From positions 1-59,476 of the IMG/VR virus record IMGVR_UViG_3300042146_000027: a stretch of 59,476 nucleotides of DNA, one strand, 5' to 3'. The position numbers and the translations under genes were made by a program. This DNA comes from a virus. Of the stretch, positions 58,038 to 58,930 are shown in pieces; the stretch's first letter is position 1, and each line of letters starts with the position of its first letter. The notes below the pieces were generated by a model. That model saw only the letters and a list, made by a program, of their open reading frames with translations. It had not been told where the DNA came from and ran no database searches.

Positions 58038-58217
58038 TTATTTGGCGTTCTTGAATTGTTCCATTTTTTGATTCATGAGCATCATGTAAATCTCGCGTTC
58101 CCAAGGTAACATCCCGTCGAGATCGGACAACCTGAAGTGGTTTTCGAAACCAATATCTCGATGGAATAGTACATGAAAGTTATTTGTGTAATACGACTCC
58201 AAACTTTCATGCGTCAT
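58038..58217 (-). CDS. 51: gp51-like tail/hub assembly protein, 59 aa
   Basis: Reads MTHESLESYYTNNFHVLFHR... with FRLSDLDGMLPWEREIYMML, the LPWERE segment typical of the T4-like gp51 position. It follows gp26 by 2 nt, in the -1 frame, and precedes the tape measure. It could start at its own ATG or be read as a C-terminal extension of gp26 by frameshift at 58226-58232. Confidence 0.8.
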   Translation of the reverse strand: MTHESLESYYTNNFHVLFHRDIGFENHFRLSDLDGMLPWEREIYMMLMNQKMEQFKNAK

Positions 58218-58219
58218 CG

Positions 58220-58930
58220 TTAGATAAAAAAATCGTTGAGCCCTTTGAATGTCACGGTTTCTGTCTTACCATCACCGACATCAAGTTCGATGGTGTGTTG
58301 GAGAGAAGGCATTGTGTCAAAGAACTGTTTGATCTTCATCAGACCTGCGGTATCGATGTCGTCATAGAACGCTTCAAGCTCTTCACGCGTGACCGAGTTA
58401 CGGTCATGAATTTCATTCTCATCGAAAATGGTGTCGATGCATTCAAGTGGCAGATCATCTTCACTCTTGATGTCCTTGAGCATCTTGAAGGTCGGGTAAC
58501 GCATGGTCATACCGATCTTGTCGCTGACCATAATGACTTTGGTATGCGCAGGATCAACCTTAACTTTGATGTCGTCAACGTTAATCGCAGCCTTGATGAA
58601 TCGACTTTGTGGACGGTCTTCAGCATCACGGAAGTCATAGCGGTATTGAACGTTGATCACTTCACCCACAGACTTGGCACGAATGCGCAGGAACAAGTCT
58701 TCAATGTCGAATGTCGACAGAGACGAACCATCAATCTTACCCAGGGTGCAGTTACCGACAATCTGCTCAATAGCATTGACCACTGCCTCTTTCTCATCAG
58801 CGGTACCCTTGGCATCTTTAGCCAACAGCAAGGTCTTTTGCTCTTGGTTAGTGAATGGGCGAAACTTGATTTGCTTGCCCAAGCCTACCAAAGTGTGAGA
58901 GTACAGCGTGTGTTGGATCTTAGGTAACAT
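58220..58930 (-). CDS. 26: gp26-like baseplate hub / tail-assembly protein
   Basis: 236 aa with the T4_baseplate family pattern: LGKQIKFRPFTNQEQKTLLL at the start, then the DDLPLECIDTIFDENE helix and a C-terminal QFFDTMPSLQHTIEL. Non-virion hub-assembly protein in T4. AGAGGA precedes the ATG. It ends ...NDFFI with the last Phe codons inside a run of seven T. Confidence 0.85.
   Translation of the reverse strand: MLPKIQHTLYSHTLVGLGKQIKFRPFTNQEQKTLLLAKDAKGTADEKEAVVNAIEQIVGNCTLGKIDGSSLSTFDIEDLFLRIRAKSVGEVINVQYRYDFRDAEDRPQSRFIKAAINVDDIKVKVDPAHTKVIMVSDKIGMTMRYPTFKMLKDIKSEDDLPLECIDTIFDENEIHDRNSVTREELEAFYDDIDTAGLMKIKQFFDTMPSLQHTIELDVGDGKTETVTFKGLNDFFI
58226..58232 (-). other. -1 ribosomal frameshift heptamer T_TTT_TTT
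   Basis: In the gp26 reading frame the minus strand reads GAT TTT TTT ATC TAA, giving T_TTT_TTT in the X_XXY_YYZ phase. A -1 shift reads TAT CTA ACG ATG and enters gp51 in frame, making a fusion of about 297 aa. This is the tail-chaperone G/GT pattern. Confidence 0.75.

Follow-up and report, generated by a model that had tools for sequence, protein, structure and literature searches.

The gp26 and gp51 reading frames of this phage very probably form a single tail assembly chaperone gene, in which a programmed -1 ribosomal frameshift would join the second frame to the first. Most ribosomes would terminate one codon past a T_TTT_TTT heptamer at the end of gp26 and yield TAC-N (gp26), while a minority would step back one base on the heptamer and yield TAC-NC, a gp26-gp51 chain of about 297 aa. 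We infer the occurrence of the slip, its rate and the binding roles of the two products discussed below.

The junction in the window

The window, by which we mean the whole stretch of 59,476 nucleotides that was analysed, carries gp26, gp51 and a 650-aa tape-measure-like ORF in that order on its minus strand, with these features:

58220..58930, minus strand: gp26 / TAC-N ORF, 236 aa, including the stop codon TAA at 58220-58222
58226..58232, minus strand: slippery heptamer T_TTT_TTT, in phase, one codon ahead of the gp26 stop
58241..58246, minus strand: SD-like AAAGGG, 8 nt upstream of the heptamer, a possible frameshift stimulator
58038..58226, minus strand: -1 frame continuation (TAC-C), 62 post-slip residues, YLTMTHES first, including the stop codon at 58038-58040
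58038..58217, minus strand: gp51 ORF as first called, 59 aa, its ATG 2 nt past the gp26 stop
58171..58212, minus strand: predicted stem-loop GCATGAAAGTT / AACTTTCATGT, 11 bp, downstream of the heptamer
56025..57977, minus strand: tape-measure-like protein, 650 aa, so called from weak PHROG matches and its position after gp51

The 3' end of gp26 reads AAC GAT TTT TTT ATC TAA, followed by CG ATG, and the T run fits the X_XXY_YYZ phase. The initial annotation had proposed that a heptamer in the correct phase ends gp26, that a -1 slip there enters the gp51 frame without meeting a stop, and that the pair directly precedes the tape measure gene. All three points were borne out: the product of the slip reads FF-YLT-MTHES... 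and is free of stops up to the gp51 end, and the two adjacent ORFs lie just upstream of the ORF at 56025-57977, whose tape-measure PHROG matches are weak (best 7.8e-8). TTTTTTT occurs once in the whole window, against 12.4 occurrences expected from dinucleotide shuffles, and TTTTTTC occurs twice, each time on the plus strand; background does not account for a slippery T run with precisely this position and phase. Among named phages, Pseudomonas phage pf16 is the closest relative, with 71% identity in the junction DNA and 67% in the gp26 protein; the predicted peptide spanning its slip is ...DFFSLALAHESMESYY....

We also noted several features around these genes. Between gp51 and the tape-measure-like ORF (57978-58037, minus strand), a small hairpin ATAAAC/GTTTAT encloses an SD-like AGGA immediately ahead of the tape-measure ATG. 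Next to that gene, on the other strand, lie a nicotinate phosphoribosyltransferase-family protein (52628-54322, plus; PF04095, 4.7e-26) and an ORF whose DprA-like match is below threshold (54844-55413, plus; PF02481, E 0.0012). The ORF at 58987-59475 (plus), divergent from gp26, runs off the window end; by eye it looks like a homing endonuclease of the GIY-YIG type, and it gave no match in Pfam.

Protein identity and the T4 counterparts

The gp26 protein matches PF12322 (2.1e-52) and phrog_150 (7.7e-54). The gp51 ORF matches phrog_634, 'baseplate hub assembly catalyst' (1.6e-15), over profile positions 60-110 of 121 only, and by this homology the window's 'gp51' is the C-terminal domain (TAC-C) alone. 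The two proteins belong to the T4 gp26/gp51 family, gp26 through PF12322 and gp51 through homology to the C-terminus of T4 gp51.

T4 gp26 and gp51 both match PF12322, T4 gp26 being homologous to that of the window. Unlike the arrangement in the window, they are encoded by two separate genes on opposite strands, so that no frameshift joins them, and gene 26 ends without a slippery heptamer; we searched this end (GAG TTC TTT GAG TTA CTA TAA) for a relic of one and found none. T4 gp51 has 249 aa, of which residues 3-248 match phrog_150 and residues 206-245 align to the window gp51 family. By these alignments T4 gp51 is a naturally occurring in-frame fusion of both parts; T4 therefore carries the long form as a separate gene, and so shows by an independent route that both parts belong to a single chain. 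A full-length in-frame gp51 apart from gp26 was not found within the 59-kb record, where the gp51 ORF has 59 aa; the remainder of the phage genome lies beyond this record. The earlier description of the junction as a T4-type version of the G/GT pair consequently needs dividing: its mechanism is well supported, and the pair is not T4's own, whose genes lie on opposite strands with gp51 as the long form.

We modelled gp26 with AlphaFold2 on an alignment of 31 sequences (mean pLDDT 89). Among 992 PDB chains re-aligned to the model, the best solved match was the HK97 tail assembly chaperone 2OB9 (Z 8.1), with 86 residues aligned over gp26 residues 1-88 at an rmsd of 3.1; it was followed by 3FGX (Z 7.9) and 5IR0 (Z 5.3) and then by a gap, the next unrelated row scoring 2.8. 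Foldseek alone found no significant match of the model in the PDB, and a gp26 profile search against PDB sequences gave nothing meaningful. Given that a Z near 8 can reflect a common arrangement and that Foldseek was not significant, we place the weight on the gap in Z and on the identity of the top match, which point to a chaperone-like fold for the modelled gp26.

Conservation of the slippery site

We took junctions from named phages and from viral contigs found by single-protein and profile searches, which gave 105 non-Ackermannvirus loci with a readable junction, or 92 once near-identical gp26 sequences were removed; these loci share ancestry and hence are not independent trials. An in-frame T_TTT_TTY/A lies at the gp26 end in 105/105 loci, and because no non-Ackermannvirus locus was discarded for missing the site, the counts are not a product of searching for it. 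The heptamer's last codon among the 92 loci is TTC in 73, TTT in 18 and TTA in 1. Codon choice at the site is uniform: the P-site Phe codon is TTT in 92/92, against a background share of 72% for TTT among Phe codons, and a T without exception closes the codon preceding the heptamer's Phe codons, where the background for D, N, S and G codons is 47-74%. In 77/92 loci a single codon separates the heptamer from the 0-frame stop. In five loci (L078, L079, L097, L100 and L101) the gp26 0 frame runs eight codons beyond the heptamer before its stop, with both frames read briefly.

RNA elements flanking the site

Most loci carry AAGG, AGGG or GAGG 8-10 nt upstream of the heptamer. Across the family, the upstream region pairs with the anti-SD at -5.3 kcal/mol, compared with -4.5 kcal/mol for synonymous versions (paired t -4.0). 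Folding of the 60 nt from +12 of the heptamer start gave a mean z of -1.52 across 90 loci, lower than at any other of the 29 positions in a scan of 1.1 kb; against synonymous-codon controls the same region averages -1.71, and elsewhere in the two genes the values are -0.4 to -0.6. A second, smaller RNA-structure peak occurs in the relatives near the gp51/tape-measure junction, at +200 to +300 (mean z -1.0 at +240). In the window itself, the downstream structure scores z -1.6 to -2.5 depending on the method, which only modestly beats controls, and other parts of the window gp26 score about as low. The downstream stems take different registers in different lineages, and we make no claim of covariation across the family.

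Reading of the second frame

The -1 frame is constrained from its beginning. TAC-C is homologous from the first codons on across 20 aligned phages, with codon periodicity, and post-slip codons 2, 4, 6 and 9 hardly vary at their second position. In nine loci a -1-frame stop lies immediately ahead of the two slipped codons, fixing the heptamer as the place of the slip.

It could be argued that gp51 is a separate protein, translated from a start of its own or by re-initiation past the gp26 stop codon, and that the T run is incidental and merely encodes Phe-Phe. In favour of this, an ATG follows the gp26 stop by two bases in the window, most GenBank records show two annotated genes, and gp26 conserves FF at the protein level. 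We nevertheless consider this reading very improbable, since the ATG is not conserved (pf16 has CTG in its place) and a usable start is commonly lacking: 43/92 relatives have no ATG, GTG or TTG within the first 14 codons, a start with an SD is present in only 4/92, and of the 91 loci with an ATG in the -1 frame, 60 have the first one no earlier than codon 19. No SD was found ahead of the window's gp51 ATG. Moreover, the codon constraint on the -1 frame extends upstream of any start, the TTT and the preceding T are kept by codon choice in all loci, and T4 has both parts as one chain. The second frame thus appears, from the comparison of sequences, to be read from the slip and not from a start of its own. 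Some free gp51 may be made in the window through coupled re-initiation, because gp51 there has its own ATG two bases past the stop. In pf16 the second gene (pf16_157, L009, 3223-3396) is annotated from an internal ATG, leaving out the conserved residues with which the -1 ORF opens.

Were the fusion produced by RNA polymerase slipping on the T run, the seven consecutive T in the window would suit it; the shorter run T6C found in 73/92 relatives favours ribosomal over polymerase slipping, and the site is flanked by SD-like and downstream RNA elements. We regard transcriptional slippage as less probable still than a separate gp51, and retain ribosomal frameshifting as the preferred explanation.

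A variant site in the Ackermannviridae

A heptamer conserved in sequence and phase, which the initial annotation had proposed to seek in relatives, was present at every locus read outside the Ackermannviridae; in that family and its relatives (22 loci: L102-L119, L121, L018, L019 and L013) the canonical heptamer is absent from the gp26 end and is replaced by G_ATT_TTC, A_ATT_TTC, G_GTT_TTC, G_GTT_TTT, G_GCT_TTC or A_CTT_TTC. A homologous -1 ORF follows gp26 in this group, in most loci without a start codon before about codon 11, and some have a -1-frame stop closely upstream, which confines any slip to the variant codons. We hold it about evenly balanced that the T4-like junction is a full frameshift cassette, with an SD-like element 8-10 nt upstream, T_TTT_TTY and downstream stem-loops whose register varies between lineages, and that the Ackermannviridae fuse the frames at a non-canonical site of the G_ATT_TTC type.

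Comparison with other tail assembly chaperones

The slippery heptamer of lambda is G_GGA_AAG, and differs from that of the window in not being a T run. The lambda gpG/gpGT system, in which a -1 slip close to the first ORF's end gives a short and a long chaperone and the tape measure gene comes next (PMC5009743), otherwise shares with the window the late slip in the first ORF, the short and long products and the position before the tape measure gene. At the TAC locus of phage Adele (Vandenendeviridae/Andersonviridae), as described in PMC12846349, a -1 frameshift likewise occurs at the TAC-N end and the second ORF is usually annotated separately; Adele belongs to other families and has a GTTTTT motif; the similar site G_GTT_TTY occurs here only in the distant relatives L103 and L104. 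By analogy with lambda gpG/gpGT, we hypothesize that TAC-N would coat the tape measure protein and that the C-terminal domain would recruit tail tube subunits, after which both TAC-N and TAC-NC would leave the finished tail.

Relation to earlier work

A 2016 review of recoding described the G-T frameshift as conserved in long-tailed phages 'except T4' (PMC5009743). The tail assembly chaperone genes of T4-like phages were then identified by Vladimirov, Gautam and Davidson (Virology 2022, 566:9-15), and passages citing that study mention polyT slippery sequences in the TAC-N genes of T4-like phages (PMC12846349) and separate short and long genes in some of these phages (PMC10885494). The initial annotation knew of no earlier description of the frameshift for the T4 gp26/gp51 pair; to judge from these two citing papers, Vladimirov et al. 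(2022) precede it. Papers that name gp26, gp51 and frameshift together were set aside, as the numbers there refer to unrelated genes of other phages. The 2022 abstract reportedly describes conserved frameshifting in several groups of T4-like phages and the use of genes 26 and 51 by T4.

As far as the citing passages convey that study, the gene families and the proposed TAC-N/TAC-NC roles are those found in the window, and the frameshifted chaperone arrangement of T4-like phages has been known since 2022; the window adds a member, related to pf16. On the same footing, the 2022 correction agrees with our data: most T4-like lineages examined keep the frameshift, and T4 has its long form as a second gene. 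We suggest that gp51 is better annotated as a joined -1 frameshift product, the separate-gene records often having no proper start codon.
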